Shown: one piece after another, positions 2,820 to 58,170 of the stretch
How the letters are laid out: each line of letters begins with the position of its first letter
Numbering within the stretch: position 1 is the stretch's first letter
Source: Alkalicella caledoniensis
GTDB lineage: Bacteria > Bacillota > Proteinivoracia > Proteinivoracales > Proteinivoracaceae
Assembly: GCF_014467015.1 (NCBI RefSeq)
Contig: NZ_CP058559.1
Coordinates: forward strand, 1,860,001 to 1,924,000
Direction of reading: 5' to 3'
Length of the DNA: 64,000 bases
Translations under genes and position numbers: made by a program
Notes under the pieces: model-generated
The model's database searches: none
Told to the model about the DNA's origin: nothing
Seen by the model: the letters and a program-made list of their open reading frames with translations, nothing else

Positions 2820-4550
2820 TTACTGCATTCTCTTAACTAACTCTAAAAACTCTGTTTTAAAATCTATATAAATCCTGTAACAGATCATCATGGTAACAGC
2901 ACCATCGATTTTATTGTCATCTTTACCTTGCACTTTGATAGGCATCATTTCTTCTTTTGAATTAACACTCATCCCTGTATTCTCTAGACACGACCTGTCA
3001 ATTGGATGGTCATTATAAACCACTTTATCGCTTTTTAGATCTGCCTCAAGAAGTCTCATTGGTTCTGACATGCTACCCCATATCTGTTCAACTTTTTTTG
3101 TATCGAACCCGAAGTCTTCCATCTCCCTAATCCAATAAGTCGCAGACCATTTATCGTAACCTGTCTTATAAAATCTAATTCCGTATTGTTTAAAAAGGTT
3201 ATAAAACCATTGAGTCACTAACCTGAAATCATTTTCGTTGCCATCTGAGACTGTTATGTATCCTTGCCTTATCCATTCTTTATATTTTGCTAGTTCATCC
3301 TTAGTTAGCGTGGAAAGTTTTGATTCAGGTATAAAATACTGCTGGATAAAATACTTTTTATCGCTATTTGGTTTCATGAGCATGGCTCTCGCACTACATA
3401 AGTCACCAGTCCTGGATAAGTCTACCCCGCCTATTGCAAAACCATTTCTAAATACTTCAATATCAAATGTTTCTTTATTCTCTATATCCTCAGGCATTAG
3501 CCAAGCTGATGAATTATTTTGTTTTTCGTTAAAGTCTTTTGATAAAACAAAAACCCTAGTAGCTTTACTTGTTTTGGCTTCTTCAACCATTAAACGGAGG
3601 AAGGACCATTTTTTTATTGTCCCTAGCCCAGGATTACTCTTTACCCATGATTTTTCATTTTGCCATATTTCCTGCTCATTATCTTGGGTATATAGCCAGA
3701 TTCTCCATCTTCGGCGTTCCATTTCGCCATTTAGCACTTCTCTAGCGTCTTTTAATCTAGAGTCAAGATACCCGTCATTTACTACTCCTTCTGTTGTTAA
3801 CTCAAAATAAAGCGGTTCATCTTGTGTTGATAGAGCCTGACGTATTGGCATGACTGATGTATTGTCTTTCATTTCGTGCACTTCATCTACTGCGCCAACT
3901 GCTATATTTCTACCTTCCTTTGCTCCTGTTTTGGCAGATATTTTTCTTATATTACCTTTATTTTTATAGGAGAACTTACCCTTCTTTTTTACATTCTTGG
4001 GATTGCCGAAGTATATACCCTTAACATTTTTTCTAGTAACTTTTTCAAGGGCTGGGCTTTCTTCTCTCATTGCATTTATAGCTTGGAACATTAAGTCAGC
4101 TTGTTCATAGTCGTTACTACTGCAAAGGATTTTTATCCCTAATGGCCCACAAAAAAACTCAGCTAGACATATAGCTGAGACTAAGGGAGTTTTACCATTT
4201 TTCCTTGCAACTAGAAATAACACATCTTGAACTAATCTAACATATCTTCCAATTTCCGCATCATAAATCTTAAATATATATATTGATTCAATAAATGCCT
4301 TTTGGAATAGCTCCAACATGAAGGGCTTACCAGCAAAAGGTGCTTCGAAGTGTTTACATCTAGTTTCTATGAACATAATCCTTTTGTGAGCTTCTTCAAA
4401 TTCAATTTTAAGTGAAGGATCACTAAAGTCCTCAAGAATCCTATCAAACTCAAGCATTAGTTCATGGCCAACCTCAATCTCGCCTAATTTGCATTTGCTG
4501 ATGTATTCTAAAAGCCATGAATGAGTGCCGTTAAAGTTAGTGTTAATCAT
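2820..4550 (-). CDS. phage terminase large subunit
   Basis: The 576-residue packaging motor has an ATPase half and a nuclease half. A deviant Walker A (VARKNGKT) is at about residues 114-121 and a Walker B (AVGAVDEVHEM) at about 217-227. The C-terminal RNase H-like nuclease begins at GGVDLSRTGD (about residue 375), which carries its first metal-binding Asp. The protein cuts concatemeric DNA and pumps it through the portal. It is preceded by a small-terminase-like gene after only 8 bases and followed by the portal, so it sits in the standard packaging block. Confidence 0.94.
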   Translation of the reverse strand: MINTNFNGTHSWLLEYISKCKLGEIEVGHELMLEFDRILEDFSDPSLKIEFEEAHKRIMFIETRCKHFEAPFAGKPFMLELFQKAFIESIYIFKIYDAEIGRYVRLVQDVLFLVARKNGKTPLVSAICLAEFFCGPLGIKILCSSNDYEQADLMFQAINAMREESPALEKVTRKNVKGIYFGNPKNVKKKGKFSYKNKGNIRKISAKTGAKEGRNIAVGAVDEVHEMKDNTSVMPIRQALSTQDEPLYFELTTEGVVNDGYLDSRLKDAREVLNGEMERRRWRIWLYTQDNEQEIWQNEKSWVKSNPGLGTIKKWSFLRLMVEEAKTSKATRVFVLSKDFNEKQNNSSAWLMPEDIENKETFDIEVFRNGFAIGGVDLSRTGDLCSARAMLMKPNSDKKYFIQQYFIPESKLSTLTKDELAKYKEWIRQGYITVSDGNENDFRLVTQWFYNLFKQYGIRFYKTGYDKWSATYWIREMEDFGFDTKKVEQIWGSMSEPMRLLEADLKSDKVVYNDHPIDRSCLENTGMSVNSKEEMMPIKVQGKDDNKIDGAVTMMICYRIYIDFKTEFLELVKRMQ

Positions 4551-11083: not shown

Positions 11084-11578
11084 TTAATCATTCCTTTCAA
11101 CTAATACTTTTAGATTTTGTCTTCCCCACTTAATTGCTTCCTGGTGAGAGTCCATATAAATATCAATTAGATTGATTCTCGCTCTTATAGCTGCTCCTGT
11201 ATCTTCGGCTGTAGATAATCCATAGCCTGGGATGATGAGTCTAGTTCCGTATGGTATTATTTTAGGGTTTACTGCCACGGTCCCAACTTTAGGGCTTGTC
11301 CCACTGGCAGTTATTTCAGGGTTTCCATCTGTACATATTCCACTTATATTGTCTCTTGGTGAGTATGCTGTAACTTCTAAGTCTATGATTTCCCACTTCT
11401 GCAGCTCATTCTTGATATACTCTAATTCCTCGATGAGCTTGTCCATGTCAATATTCTGCTGCTTAATGACCCGTAACTGTTCATCTATGATTGATTCTCT
11501 GTGAGTTATTTGACTTTCTATATTTTTGATTGTGGCTATAGTAGCAATTGCTATCATTACGATTAACAGTTTTTTCAT
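11084..11578 (-). CDS. 3D-domain (YuiC/MltA-like) cell-wall protein
   Basis: The start is taken as ATG 11578, which overlaps the upstream stop as ATGA, giving 164 residues. An N-terminal membrane/signal segment (LLIVMIAIATIATI) is followed by a coiled coil and then a 3D domain: VTAYSP, AEDTGAAI and a final IDIYMDSH with the family's Asp residues. The family acts on peptidoglycan as lytic transglycosylases (known for MltA, YuiC). An anchored version in an early phage operon could remodel the host wall; the role here is unknown. Confidence 0.8.
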   Translation of the reverse strand: MKKLLIVMIAIATIATIKNIESQITHRESIIDEQLRVIKQQNIDMDKLIEELEYIKNELQKWEIIDLEVTAYSPRDNISGICTDGNPEITASGTSPKVGTVAVNPKIIPYGTRLIIPGYGLSTAEDTGAAIRARINLIDIYMDSHQEAIKWGRQNLKVLVERND

Positions 11579-11760
11579 GACATCCACGCTGGAACTGTTA
11601 TTTCAATTTCTTCGTTGGACTGTTCACAATTATATTTCACTTGTAAGGCTTCTATCTCTAGCTGAACTTCTTCGCTTAGTTCTTTGGGAACAGTAGCTTT
11701 TCCATTTTTATATAACTGGTTCATATGTTTTTGAACTTCTATCATTCCTTTAGCATCCAT
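11575..11760 (-). CDS. 61-residue phage protein
   Basis: The start is ATG 11760 (MDAKGMIEVQKHM), behind AAAGGTGG. It encodes a small protein ending with a hydrophobic VPAWMS, rich in E/Q/K, of unknown function. Its stop overlaps the next ATG by a shared ATGA, which implies coupled translation with the 3D-domain protein. Confidence 0.6.
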   Translation of the reverse strand: MDAKGMIEVQKHMNQLYKNGKATVPKELSEEVQLEIEALQVKYNCEQSNEEIEITVPAWMS

Positions 11761-11786: not shown

Positions 11787-12602
11787 TCAATCTCTCTTGC
11801 GTAACTTTAAGTAGAATGACCAACCTGTGTATTCGTTGTATTCCATCCTCACGGCATAATCATTTTTTGATATGGTCCATCCTGGGTATCTTCTTTCCCA
11901 GTAGGATATATCCGGAGGCTCTTTTGCTATTTTGGATATTTCTCTCCGGCTATATTTGTGATCATTATTTCTGTACCATGGTTTTTCTAAGTTTTGACTT
12001 GAGCTCCAGCGTTTTTTACCGTTTGGGTTTTTTGTTAGGTATGTACAAAGAGCCGCTACTCCATTTTCATCTGGTTGTAATCTGTCTGCATTTACATACC
12101 CAATCATTTCCCCTTTTTTCTCTCCTTTCTTTTTTCTTTTACACCATAGGTCCTCGACTATATCTCTGTCTAAACCACCATTTATAAATATATGGTGATG
12201 GATTCTTATTGGTTTTTCCTCTCCTTTTTTTGTGTTGTACTCTGTAACCAGTATGTACTTTAAGGGTGAGAGCCCTTGTTTCTTTCTTCTGTAGCTTAGT
12301 CTTCTGAGGTAGTTAGTAACTTCTTTTTCAGCTTCTTCTATTGTTTTCGGTAAGTATTTATCCTTGTATGTAGCTGTTACGTGTAAGTCTCTTTCATCAA
12401 AATTTGTGTTGGCTAACTGAGTCAGATATCTTCTTGCATTTTTATCATTTAGATTTTTTTGCTTGGGTTCTGTGATATTTTTCTTCTTAGATCTCTTACC
12501 ACTTTTAGAATTTATTGTTTGATTTTTTGTGTATGAATATATATCAACTTCCAGATATTTGTCCCCACAGTAAATCTTCTTCTCCCTGATAAAATTTCTC
12601 AC
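11787..12602 (-). CDS. HUH-family rolling-circle replication initiator (Rep)
   Basis: The GTG at 12602 is preferred because GGAGGTAATAGC lies just ahead, giving 271 residues. The HUH metal site is visible in PIRIHHHIFINGG (about residues 135-137), with an upstream YILVTEYN strand. A candidate catalytic Tyr is at about 188 in ALCTYLTKN. Proteins of this class nick one strand at the origin and start rolling-circle synthesis. A basic Lys-rich N-terminus would help DNA binding. Upstream are an attenuator-like hairpin and an antisense RNA candidate (12657-12800). Confidence 0.82.
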   Translation of the reverse strand: MRNFIREKKIYCGDKYLEVDIYSYTKNQTINSKSGKRSKKKNITEPKQKNLNDKNARRYLTQLANTNFDERDLHVTATYKDKYLPKTIEEAEKEVTNYLRRLSYRRKKQGLSPLKYILVTEYNTKKGEEKPIRIHHHIFINGGLDRDIVEDLWCKRKKKGEKKGEMIGYVNADRLQPDENGVAALCTYLTKNPNGKKRWSSSQNLEKPWYRNNDHKYSRREISKIAKEPPDISYWERRYPGWTISKNDYAVRMEYNEYTGWSFYLKLRKRD

Positions 12603-12657
12603 GCTATTACCTCCATTAGCTTGTTTCGTAGAAAAGATAATACCCATTACGAGCTTG

Positions 12658-12682
12658 AAAAGCCCGATTATATAAGGCTTTT
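12658..12682 (-). terminator. attenuator-like hairpin in the rep leader
   Basis: The inverted repeat AAAAGCC / GGCTTTT with an 11-base loop lies 56 bases upstream of the rep GTG. Each arm provides four T, so it could terminate weakly on either strand. On the minus strand it sits between the antisense RNA target and rep, the position of a transcriptional attenuator. The trailing U-run is short, so strength is uncertain. Confidence 0.5.
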
Positions 12683-12743
12683 CTTGACTTACACCTTGCT
12701 CCTTTGGTATAATGGAGGTAGATGGTTTTGGTATAAGTCAAGT
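12683..12743. repeat. 13-bp inverted repeat around the antisense promoter
   Basis: The arms CTTGACTTACACC (12683-12695) and GGTATAAGTCAAG (12731-12743) pair along their whole length with one G-U. The left arm contains the -35 of the plus-strand promoter and the right arm is inside the predicted RNA. On the rep transcript this would form a long hairpin directly ahead of the attenuator, so it may be the switch element or an operator. Confidence 0.55.
12684..12713 (+). promoter_or_regulatory. strong plus-strand promoter opposite the rep leader
   Basis: TTGACT (12684-12689), an 18-base spacer and a perfect TATAAT (12708-12713). Start expected near 12720. It faces away from rep and drives no substantial ORF, only a four-codon frame (MVLV) behind GGAGG. 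Confidence 0.7.
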
Positions 12744-12800
12744 TCTAAGGAAGAACGTTTTGCAGTTATTTGGGAAGGTAATTGCAAAGCGTTTTTTCTA
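12720..12800 (+). ncRNA. candidate antisense (countertranscribed) RNA to the rep leader
   Basis: The RNA from about 12720 would fold a small hairpin GTTCT-AAGGA-AGAAC (12742-12756 region) and end in an intrinsic terminator. The terminator's 15-bp stem runs 12754-12793 (one G-U), its loop is TTTGGGAAGG and a T-rich run follows to 12797 and beyond. Length is about 80 nt. It is fully complementary to the leader of the leftward transcript that carries rep. This is the layout of ctRNAs of pT181/pIP501-type plasmids. No coding potential is visible beyond a four-codon frame. Confidence 0.6.
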
Positions 12801-12962
12801 TTTTTTTTGTATTGTTAAGTCTCTGTATTTACAATATGTTCCTTGGTGGTAGCTGCACTCATGATAGCAATGCTTAAGGCACACAGCTTGTCCATGTTTA
12901 GGGCAACGGGCCCAGTGTCTTTCCTTTTCAACTGTTGTATGGCATATAGGGCATGTTTGCAT
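12798..12962 (-). CDS. 54-residue zinc-finger-like phage protein
   Basis: ATG 12962 overlaps the upstream TAA (TAATG). The 54 residues (MQTCPICHTTVEKERHWARC) contain eight cysteines and seven histidines: C4-x2-C7, C20, C28, C32, C36 and C44 with interspersed His, enough for two zinc sites. It is the last gene before the rep leader. Its stop falls in the T-run of the antisense RNA terminator. Confidence 0.6.
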   Translation of the reverse strand: MQTCPICHTTVEKERHWARCPKHGQAVCLKHCYHECSYHQGTYCKYRDLTIQKK

Positions 12963-13249: not shown

Positions 13250-13281
13250 TATTGCCCCTCCTTGTGTTATAATATAAGGAA

Positions 13282-13333
13282 GGGAGTGGCAGCTCCCTAC
13301 CCAACTTTCTTGTAGGGCCCTCTTAAGGGCTCT
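13282..13333. other. two hairpins in an 82-base gap
   Basis: GGGAG...CTCCC (13282-13297) and AGGGCCC...GGGCTCT (13314-13333, one G-T pair). The second is followed on the plus strand by a T-rich run (ATTTATTTTT), as for a plus-strand terminator, but no plus-strand gene ends here. They may block antisense transcription or process the leftward mRNA. Confidence 0.35.
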
Positions 13334-13751
13334 ATTTATTTTTCCTTACTTTATTTTGGACCTCATTACAGATCCTGTTGTAGTCCTTTATTTGTATAGC
13401 CTCTGACTTTGTATAGCCATATTTAGATATAATTTCTTTTATTAATTCTTTGTAACCATTAGACAGGGCATATAGCCTCTTGGATTGTCCTTCAGTTATT
13501 TTGTTTATTATGGGCTCAGTTGGGGCTGGCTTAGTTCCTTTAGTTTCAGGAGCATTTACTTCTACAAATTTGTATGTAGAAACCTTATAGTCTCTTTTTA
13601 CTGCAACTTTAACAACAAATTCTTTTCCACAACCACCGTCACTTTTGAAACATTCAACTACTTGAGATCCTATAAGTAGGGATCTAGTATCTTCTACCTC
13701 ACAGTGCGGACATTTTACTCTTGTATAAGCTGTTTCCCCTTGGATAAGCAT
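13332..13751 (-). CDS. zinc-ribbon phage protein with Erf/RecT-type C-terminal module
   Basis: The 139 residues start with a zinc ribbon (CPHC at 14-17 and C34/C41 in VECFKSDGGCGKE). After a Pro/Thr linker, a C-terminal helical module ITEGQSKRLYALSNGYKELI continues KYGYTKSEAIQIKDYNRIC. That module is seen at the end of various phage ssDNA-binding/recombination proteins. The protein probably binds DNA. GGAGGTATTAC precedes the ATG. Confidence 0.55.
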   Translation of the reverse strand: MLIQGETAYTRVKCPHCEVEDTRSLLIGSQVVECFKSDGGCGKEFVVKVAVKRDYKVSTYKFVEVNAPETKGTKPAPTEPIINKITEGQSKRLYALSNGYKELIKEIISKYGYTKSEAIQIKDYNRICNEVQNKVRKNK

Positions 13752-27533: not shown

Positions 27534-27538
27534 AAGTA

Positions 27539-27654
27539 CCTAGCGACGTCCTACTCTCCCAGGGGGTAACCCCAAGTACCATCGGCGCTGAAGAGCTTAA
27601 CTGCGGTGTTCGGAATGGGAACCGGTGTATCCTCTTCGCCATCATCACTAGATG
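27539..27654 (-). rRNA. rrf: 5S ribosomal RNA, operon 1
   Basis: Complementary strand carries the conserved 5S core (CCGAACACCGCAGTTAAGC, then GCGCCGATGGTACTTGG) in a 116-base unit, located between the 23S gene and terminator. One base in the loop (GGAATGGG) differs from operon 2 (GGAACGGG). Confidence 0.95.
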
Positions 27655-27751
27655 AAACTATCACACTAAATTCATAGCAAGGTTTTCAAAGGTTTTATTC
27701 TTAAAGTTTTTCCTGACTGCTGACTACTGTCAGCTGACAGCTTAAATATTT

Positions 27752-32508
<4,757 letters not shown>

Positions 32509-32764
32509 AATTGAAAAGTTTATATTAGTTGGTTAGTTTCTAGTTGGTTAGTTGGTTAGGTTGCCCTGTCCAACTATCTACTGTCCACTAACTACTTAAT
32601 TAACTGACTTCAGACTTTCGTCTGGTTTTAATCACTTTAAACTCAAATTCGAAATTAACTTTTACCAAGTTATATTTCTTATGGTATAGTGCTGTTCAAT
32701 TTTCAAAGAACTGTCAGTAGCTCGTGCTACTTTTTTGTTTCATCACCTCTCGGCGACAAAGACT
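32509..32764 (-). other. rRNA operon 1 leader
   Basis: About 255 bases between promoter and 16S. It contains TTTGAAAATTGAACAGC, the usual rRNA-leader motif, and a hairpin CAGACGAAAGTCTG. The last 80 bases next to the 16S (TTAGTTGG reiterations) are specific to this operon; the rest matches operon 2 almost exactly. Confidence 0.65.
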
Positions 32765-52952: not shown

Positions 52953-52957
52953 AAGTA

Positions 52958-53073
52958 CCTAGCGACGTCCTACTCTCCCAGGGGGTAACCCCAAGTACCA
53001 TCGGCGCTGAAGAGCTTAACTGCGGTGTTCGGAACGGGAACCGGTGTATCCTCTTCGCCATCATCACTAGATG
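52958..53073 (-). rRNA. rrf: 5S ribosomal RNA, operon 2
   Basis: Second 5S copy, 25419 bases to the right of operon 1, with one visible substitution (GGAACGGG). Same boundaries and spacing. Confidence 0.95.
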
Positions 53074-53170
53074 AAACTATCACACTAAATTCATAGCAAG
53101 GTTTTCAAAGGTTTTGTTCTTAAAGTTTTTCCTGACTGCTGACTACTGTCAGCTGACAGCTTAAATATTT

Positions 53171-57927
<4,757 letters not shown>

Positions 57928-58170
57928 AATTGAAAAGTTATATCATTCGCACATCGCTATTGGCAGTTAGCAGTTAGCTAAATACTAATAACTTAATGCG
58001 TTGATTACTGACTTCAGACTTTCGTCTGGTTTTAATCACTTTAAACTCAAATTCGAAATTAACTTTTACCAAGTTATATTTCTTATGGTATAGTGCTGTT
58101 CAATTTCCAAAGAACTGTCAGTAGCTCACGCTACTTTTTTTTATTTTATCACCTCTCGGCGACAAAGACT
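57928..58170 (-). other. rRNA operon 2 leader
   Basis: The first 80 bases (containing the heptamer pair CAGTTAG-CAGTTAG at 57966) differ from operon 1. The remainder, with TTTGGAAATTGAACAGC and the CAGACGAAAGTCTG hairpin, is nearly the same. Confidence 0.6.

Follow-up and report, generated by a model that had tools for sequence, protein, structure and literature searches.

The 64-kb stretch of DNA analysed here (the window) comes from a chromosome of 3.7 Mb and carries a prophage whose replication region includes rep, a gene on the minus strand for a HUH replication initiator. The rep product matches the Pfam family REP_ORF2-G2P with an E-value of 6e-10 and PHROG 3584 with an E-value of 5e-85, and these profile matches are accompanied by an HUH motif, here HHH, that is invariant in the Rep protein alignment (A1). 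No solved structure for this Rep family was found by sequence. The GTG at 12602 appears better placed as the rep start than the ATG at 12647 chosen by the ORF finder, because a good Shine-Dalgarno sequence precedes the GTG and the ATG lacks one. The features of the locus are collected in Table 1.

Table 1. Positions in the window of rep and of the elements predicted in its leader.
Feature	Position	Strand	Remarks
rep, HUH replication initiator	11787..12602	-	271 aa from GTG 12602; PF23343 REP_ORF2-G2P, PHROG 3584
rep translation start, GTG and Shine-Dalgarno	12602..12618	-	11 nt at 12608-12618, TAATGGAGGTA, targeted by the putative anti-start element
Predicted origin (dso) motif CTCGTAATGGGTATTA	12638..12653	-	conserved upstream of rep in relatives
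Predicted dso hairpin GAAAAGCC...GGCTTTTC	12657..12683	-	rep strand without U-tract
Inverted-repeat arm 1	12683..12695	.	overlaps -35; would pair with arm 2 on rep mRNA (ON hairpin)
Antisense promoter TTGACT-18-TATAAT, extended -10	12684..12713	+	same place in 50/66 relatives
Putative anti-start element UACCUCCAUUA in rep leader	12710..12720	-	perfect complement of rep Shine-Dalgarno; just outside antisense RNA
Predicted antisense RNA, about 85 nt	12720..12806	+	start inferred from conserved initiator; 3' end in T-run
Inverted-repeat arm 2	12730..12742	.	inside antisense RNA; the RNA presumably targets the complementary stretch of the rep leader
Intrinsic terminator of antisense RNA	12750..12809	+	stem of >20 bp (12750-12797), then T-run

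Several neighbouring features were also recorded. A 3D-domain protein resembling cell-wall enzymes is encoded at 11084-11587 (minus strand), between the SSB gene and rep and thus within the replication region. On the other side lies an ORF for a 54-aa Cys/His-rich protein, zinc-ribbon-like by eye (12798-12962, minus strand), which ends exactly at the antisense terminator and gave no Pfam or PHROG match. A second strong plus-strand hairpin with a T-run, together with an inverted repeat on the other strand, occupies 13281-13335 in the gap between two early genes; no convincing promoter was found for it. Beside the prophage are two rRNA operons (27538-32509 and 52957-57928, minus strand) with near-identical model scores, which flank a region of tRNA, SRP RNA and T-box elements.

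Relatives were gathered by scanning viral contigs both by protein and by origin pattern and by one scan of genome contigs, which together gave several hundred loci, and the conservation of promoters and terminators was counted in 66 non-redundant loci of HUH rep relatives. Promoters and start codons were assigned by simple heuristic rules that were the same for tests and controls. Among the hosts named are Clostridium, Clostridioides, Paenibacillus and Loigolactobacillus, and further relatives occur in phage records of Latilactobacillus and Terrisporobacter. In two of these, Latilactobacillus phage TMW 1.46 P2 and Terrisporobacter phage TPDSL_ph2, the antisense unit described below is visible by eye, and neither record carries an RNA annotation at that place. 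Judged by these sequence patterns, the antisense/rep arrangement recurs in numerous related phages whose hosts are Clostridia and Bacilli. A search of the window's own genome and 397 others found no further copy of the unit in the own genome, where a weak second match is an A/T-rich stretch, and one copy of the origin motif turned up among the 398 genomes (locus L202). The region of the antisense RNA showed no DNA similarity to phages, and no Rfam covariance model reached its gathering score in the window region or in the relatives. In one relative (L203, OP455940.1, 4001-4819) the replication protein is annotated from locus position 4100, and a conserved N-terminus matches from 4001; the deposited coding sequence is probably too short.

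The most widely shared element upstream of rep is CTTGTAATRGGTATTA, which is found there, exactly or as a close variant, in 172 of 177 relatives (1.5% by chance); four of the five loci that lack it have <200 nt of upstream sequence. All 17 matches to a 21-nt form of the motif in viral contigs adjoin rep on the same strand. Among 169 places that carry the motif, 57 have no adjoining rep, and most of these look like chance matches of a 16-mer or contig ends. In relatives an equivalent of the window hairpin likewise stands on the 5' side of the motif. Conserved and lying between the antisense unit and rep, CTTGTAATRGGTATTA with its hairpin is almost certainly the double-strand origin (dso). The predicted nick, CTCG^TAATGG, is placed within the motif by analogy. 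We take CTTG^TAAT to resemble the nick sites of phiX174 and pC194. Read on the antisense strand (plus strand, 12657-12683 in the window), the origin hairpin has behind it, in many relatives, a short T-run that directly precedes the -35 element, and this hairpin may also terminate transcription that enters from the rep side.

Two of these 57 places, in related phages (loci L314 and L328), have a different layout. Their rep is distant, with 38% identity to that of the window over an aligned 180 aa, and the origin motif lies downstream of it (2779-2794 and 2446-2461, respectively), unlike in the window. A hairpin with a T-run is present on the rep strand beside the motif in both, and the antisense unit is not recognisable in either.

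A preliminary description of this locus had pointed to a promoter on the strand opposite rep, followed by a terminator with a 15-bp stem and encoding no protein. Both elements were recovered. The promoter matches the consensus at 11 of 12 positions, has TG before its -10 element and scores highest of all promoter matches in 4 kb. Promoter-like sites are no more numerous in the region than in shuffled sequence (13 versus 12.1), and for this reason the conservation of the site in relatives is the real evidence. Within 130 nt of the origin motif, a promoter on the opposite strand scores at least 9 in 50 of the 66 non-redundant loci, compared with 14% of random segments, and at least 10 in 33 of the 66, compared with 2%; on the rep strand of the same stretch the corresponding counts are 3 and 0. 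The promoter profile over the relatives shows an extended -10 element and a T(A/G) initiator, a signal for the start site. In these 50 loci the -10 element most often stands 70-72 nt from the origin motif, and the distance from promoter to origin is steadier than that from promoter to rep start, which hints at an origin role. A promoter between origin and rep was detected in only 4 of 66 loci (0.8 expected), and therefore the rep leader is probably transcribed from further upstream as a rule.

The terminator in the window is stronger than first described, and a terminator of -10 kcal/mol or better follows within 125 nt in all 50 promoter-bearing relatives, compared with 12-14% of random sequence. 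No convincing ORF lies in the RNA region. From these signals the unit would make an RNA of about 80 nt, the predicted length in relatives having a median of 79 nt (interquartile range 75-85). The RNA predicted for the window has an open 5' tail followed by a long hairpin, with a folding energy of -30.1 kcal/mol (z = -6.8).

The 13-bp inverted repeat that had been reported to overlap the -35 element is also present, with 12 Watson-Crick pairs and one G-U pair on the rep strand. Among relatives, arm 1 lies in or beside the spacer between -35 and -10, upstream of the RNA start, and arm 2 at about +18 to +31. An inverted-repeat score of at least 10 is reached by 42% of arm pairs from the same locus and by 3.9% when arms are swapped between loci. 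Likewise, 62% of loci score at least 9 at the true position and 2-16% at most shifted positions, the exceptions being a shift of -150 (24%) and shifts of -60 and +60, which fall on the origin and terminator hairpins. Because arms match their own partners and arm sequences differ widely between lineages, this is covariation, for which the preliminary description had proposed a search across homologues. Among stem mismatches there is an excess of C.A as read on the RNA strand, that is, G.U on the rep strand (11/19 versus 8/41, p = 0.006; against G.T alone the difference does not reach significance, p = 0.09), which suggests that the hairpin belongs to the rep strand. Arm 1 is outside the antisense RNA, which leaves the rep mRNA or displaced single-stranded DNA as the place where the hairpin would act.

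The segment of the rep leader opposite the antisense promoter, from its -35 element to the start site, is not covered by the RNA, and its sequence complements that of the rep start at its own locus. In the window the anti-start element lies in the loop of the hairpin, and UACCUCCAUUA pairs with UAAUGGAGGUA at 11 of 11 positions, a length reached by none of 660 shuffles. Across loci, the duplex between leader segment and rep start is predicted at -12.6 kcal/mol for own partners and -9.3 kcal/mol for swapped ones (p = 3.6e-6), and a shared k-mer of at least 8 occurs in 8 of 56 loci against 0.9 expected (permutation p < 5e-5). As this signal was first met in an exploratory duplex test, replication was needed. 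In a held-out set of nine promoter-bearing loci from two later scans the energies were -13.3 versus -9.8 (p = 0.02), and when each rep cluster (<70% identity) was represented by a single locus, a match of at least 7 was found in 14 of 48 against 3.5 expected (p < 1e-5). Such exact matches of at least 7 nt are confined to about 30% of loci, and for the rest the case is made by group statistics. The anti-start sequences differ by lineage, as in AATACCGTGA (L035), TTGCCGTGA (L033), TGCCGTAT (L054) and CTCAGGTG (L040), and in relatives the complement lies on the arm 1 side of the inverted repeat or in its loop.

Control targets 60 and 90 nt into rep gave no signal of complementarity, and those at +34 and +120 gave a weak one in one of three measures (the sum). 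When Shine-Dalgarno pairing was sought over the whole 150-nt unit by longest match, no excess was found (5.2 versus 4.9); an excess is seen only when the entire start region is compared with the part of the leader that faces the promoter. The antisense RNA might instead act in trans by direct base-pairing to the rep start or to other mRNAs, in which case pairing within the leader would be incidental. Its 5' tail does favour the own rep start (-13.3 versus -11.5 kcal/mol for swapped starts, p = 0.002), but this signal is weaker than that of the leader and is expected as its by-product, and no more than 3 nt of the window RNA complement the shared k-mer. We hold a trans-acting RNA to be very unlikely.

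Plasmids limit their initiators by antisense RNA, and the usual view of tailed temperate phages is that repressors and early promoters govern their replication. At this locus there are a conserved promoter and terminator, a covarying hairpin and a complementarity of each leader to its own rep start, all established by computation. The reading we prefer, at a probability of roughly 0.6, is control of the phage replication initiator by a countertranscribed RNA in the rep leader beside the origin. The constitutive-looking promoter would yield the short RNA, ending at the intrinsic terminator. In the ON state, arm 2', the target of the RNA, would normally be paired with arm 1' in the hairpin of the rep mRNA leader, and this hairpin, with the anti-start element in arm 1' or the loop, would hold the element off the ribosome-binding site so that rep is translated. 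In the OFF state, antisense RNA bound to arm 2' would free the anti-start element to pair with the rep Shine-Dalgarno sequence or start codon. Because the two leader states are mutually exclusive and the RNA covers arm 2', the RNA would favour sequestration of the rep start. Three steps are inferred: synthesis of the RNA, its binding, and the lowering of Rep by that binding. As phage copies increase or leaky early transcripts appear, the RNA would damp Rep synthesis, and in the lysogen it would silence stray rep mRNA.

Computed folds of the leader are in part consistent with this switch. In the free window leader, the segment opposite the promoter is expected to form 12.0 pairs with the region targeted by the RNA and 0.01 with the rep start; once that target is blocked, its pairs with the rep start number 7.8. 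Across loci, blocking raises the pairs between segment and rep start from 3.1 to 6.9, an increase that partly follows from the block itself. Accessibility of the rep start falls slightly across loci on blocking (0.433 to 0.412, p = 0.08) and rises in the window (0.37 to 0.47); the change is small because other pairings compete. The fall is larger with own than with swapped rep starts (p = 0.036), yet it too is small.

The preliminary description had likened the locus to pT181, pIP501 and pAMbeta1, in which the antisense RNA acts on an attenuator in the leader, and had noted an attenuator-like hairpin between the promoter and rep. The overall layout of antisense RNA and leader is indeed that of pT181/pIP501-type attenuation (PMC5703833), by which the RNA would make the rep leader fold into a terminator. 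A hairpin does stand at the place indicated, but it is the hairpin of the predicted dso and lacks a U-tract. The leader carries rep-strand terminators no more often than random sequence does (24% versus 19% at -12 kcal/mol), and a strict detector finds one in 0 of 66 loci. A leader attenuator was rejected on these grounds, and we consider attenuation extremely improbable. What survives of the proposed copy-number-like control is a countertranscript of plasmid size, the conservation of its promoter and terminator in relatives, and exclusive pairings in the leader; the attenuator is not supported.

The main rival to the leader switch, or its partner, since the two could coexist, is an RNA-polymerase-dependent origin of lagging-strand synthesis: a hairpin by the nick on the displaced rep-sense strand would recruit host RNA polymerase, whose RNA would prime the other strand, in the manner of the M13 minus origin or plasmid ssos. 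On the strand that Rep should displace, the unit lies immediately 5' of the predicted nick, and the polarity of the RNA is right. The inverted-repeat hairpin forms on the rep-sense strand and folds as single-stranded DNA, but that strand is also the strand of the mRNA. The steadier spacing of promoter to origin and the SSB gene nearby agree with such an origin, and single-strand origins primed by RNA polymerase are established in RCR elements (PMC4595007, PMC5703833). A single-strand origin would not, however, lead one to expect that the promoter segment complements the rep translation start, that every copy has a strong T-run terminator or that the promoter is a near-consensus duplex one, and we regard it as unlikely. 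That one element does two jobs, repressing rep through the leader switch and priming the complementary strand by RNA polymerase when single-stranded, seems to us distinctly doubtful. Alternatively, the promoter might serve the origin, with negative supercoiling behind RNA polymerase extruding the dso hairpin and aiding nicking by Rep, and the RNA a by-product. The promoter abuts the dso hairpin and points away from it, and the transcript is short and terminated; this account leaves the covarying inverted repeat and the anti-start complementarity unexplained and strikes us as quite improbable.

In the minus-strand origin of M13, a hairpin with promoter-like elements lies beside the plus origin. 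The plasmid origins ssoA and ssoU similarly have a hairpin by the plus origin, promoter-like elements and an RNA antisense to the displaced strand (PMC4595007, PMC5703833). Unlike these, the unit described here has an extended -10 promoter of the duplex type, a terminated RNA of about 80 nt and pairing with the rep start.

Among plasmid systems, the layout in the window best resembles that of pSK41 RNAI, from staphylococcal RepA_N plasmids, and not pT181 attenuation. RNAI of pSK41 is likewise a short countertranscript, complementary to a part of the leader distant from the rep start: it is about 83 nt long, its leader target lies about 100 nt upstream, and an induced stem-loop is proposed to hide the ribosome-binding site (PMC5703833). 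The pairing evidence here points to sequestration of the rep start, and thus to translational control, as in pSK41. The two systems differ in that pSK41 is a theta plasmid with an unrelated initiator and the carrier here is a phage, in that RNAI has two stem-loops and the predicted RNA a 5' tail and one terminator hairpin, and in that the origin here is inside the leader, between the RNA target and the rep start. Competing leader pairings are also used by RNAI/repC of pT181, whose antisense RNA is 87 nt (PMC5703833), and by RNAIII/repR of pIP501, but both need a leader terminator, whereas here there is no rep-strand terminator before rep and control would be translational. The rolling-circle plasmids provide a further likeness, as RNAII of pMV158 (PMC4485353) and the countertranscripts of pC194 and pUB110 (PMC5703833) have a single-stranded 5' tail and one terminator hairpin and inhibit rep translation. 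RNAII is shorter, however, with a 17-nt tail and an 8-bp stem, and acts at the rep start, whereas the target here is up to several hundred nt upstream. The extrachromosomal mycobacteriophages of the RedRock type are also tailed temperate phages with a noncoding RNA in the replication region; there the RNA replaces the RepA protein in initiation (PMC7157519), whereas here a protein initiator would be the target of control.

Sequence alone defines a testable double-strand origin for this Rep family, and the RNA and the rep leader can now be assayed directly. If the dual-role reading were true, copy sensing would be physically tied to each rolling-circle round in a tailed phage. If the leader switch operates as proposed, a conserved and unannotated antisense switch would constitute plasmid-style copy control atop lysogenic repression in phages of Clostridia and Bacilli, and it would help to explain how the host chromosome escapes nicking by the active rolling-circle initiator of a prophage.
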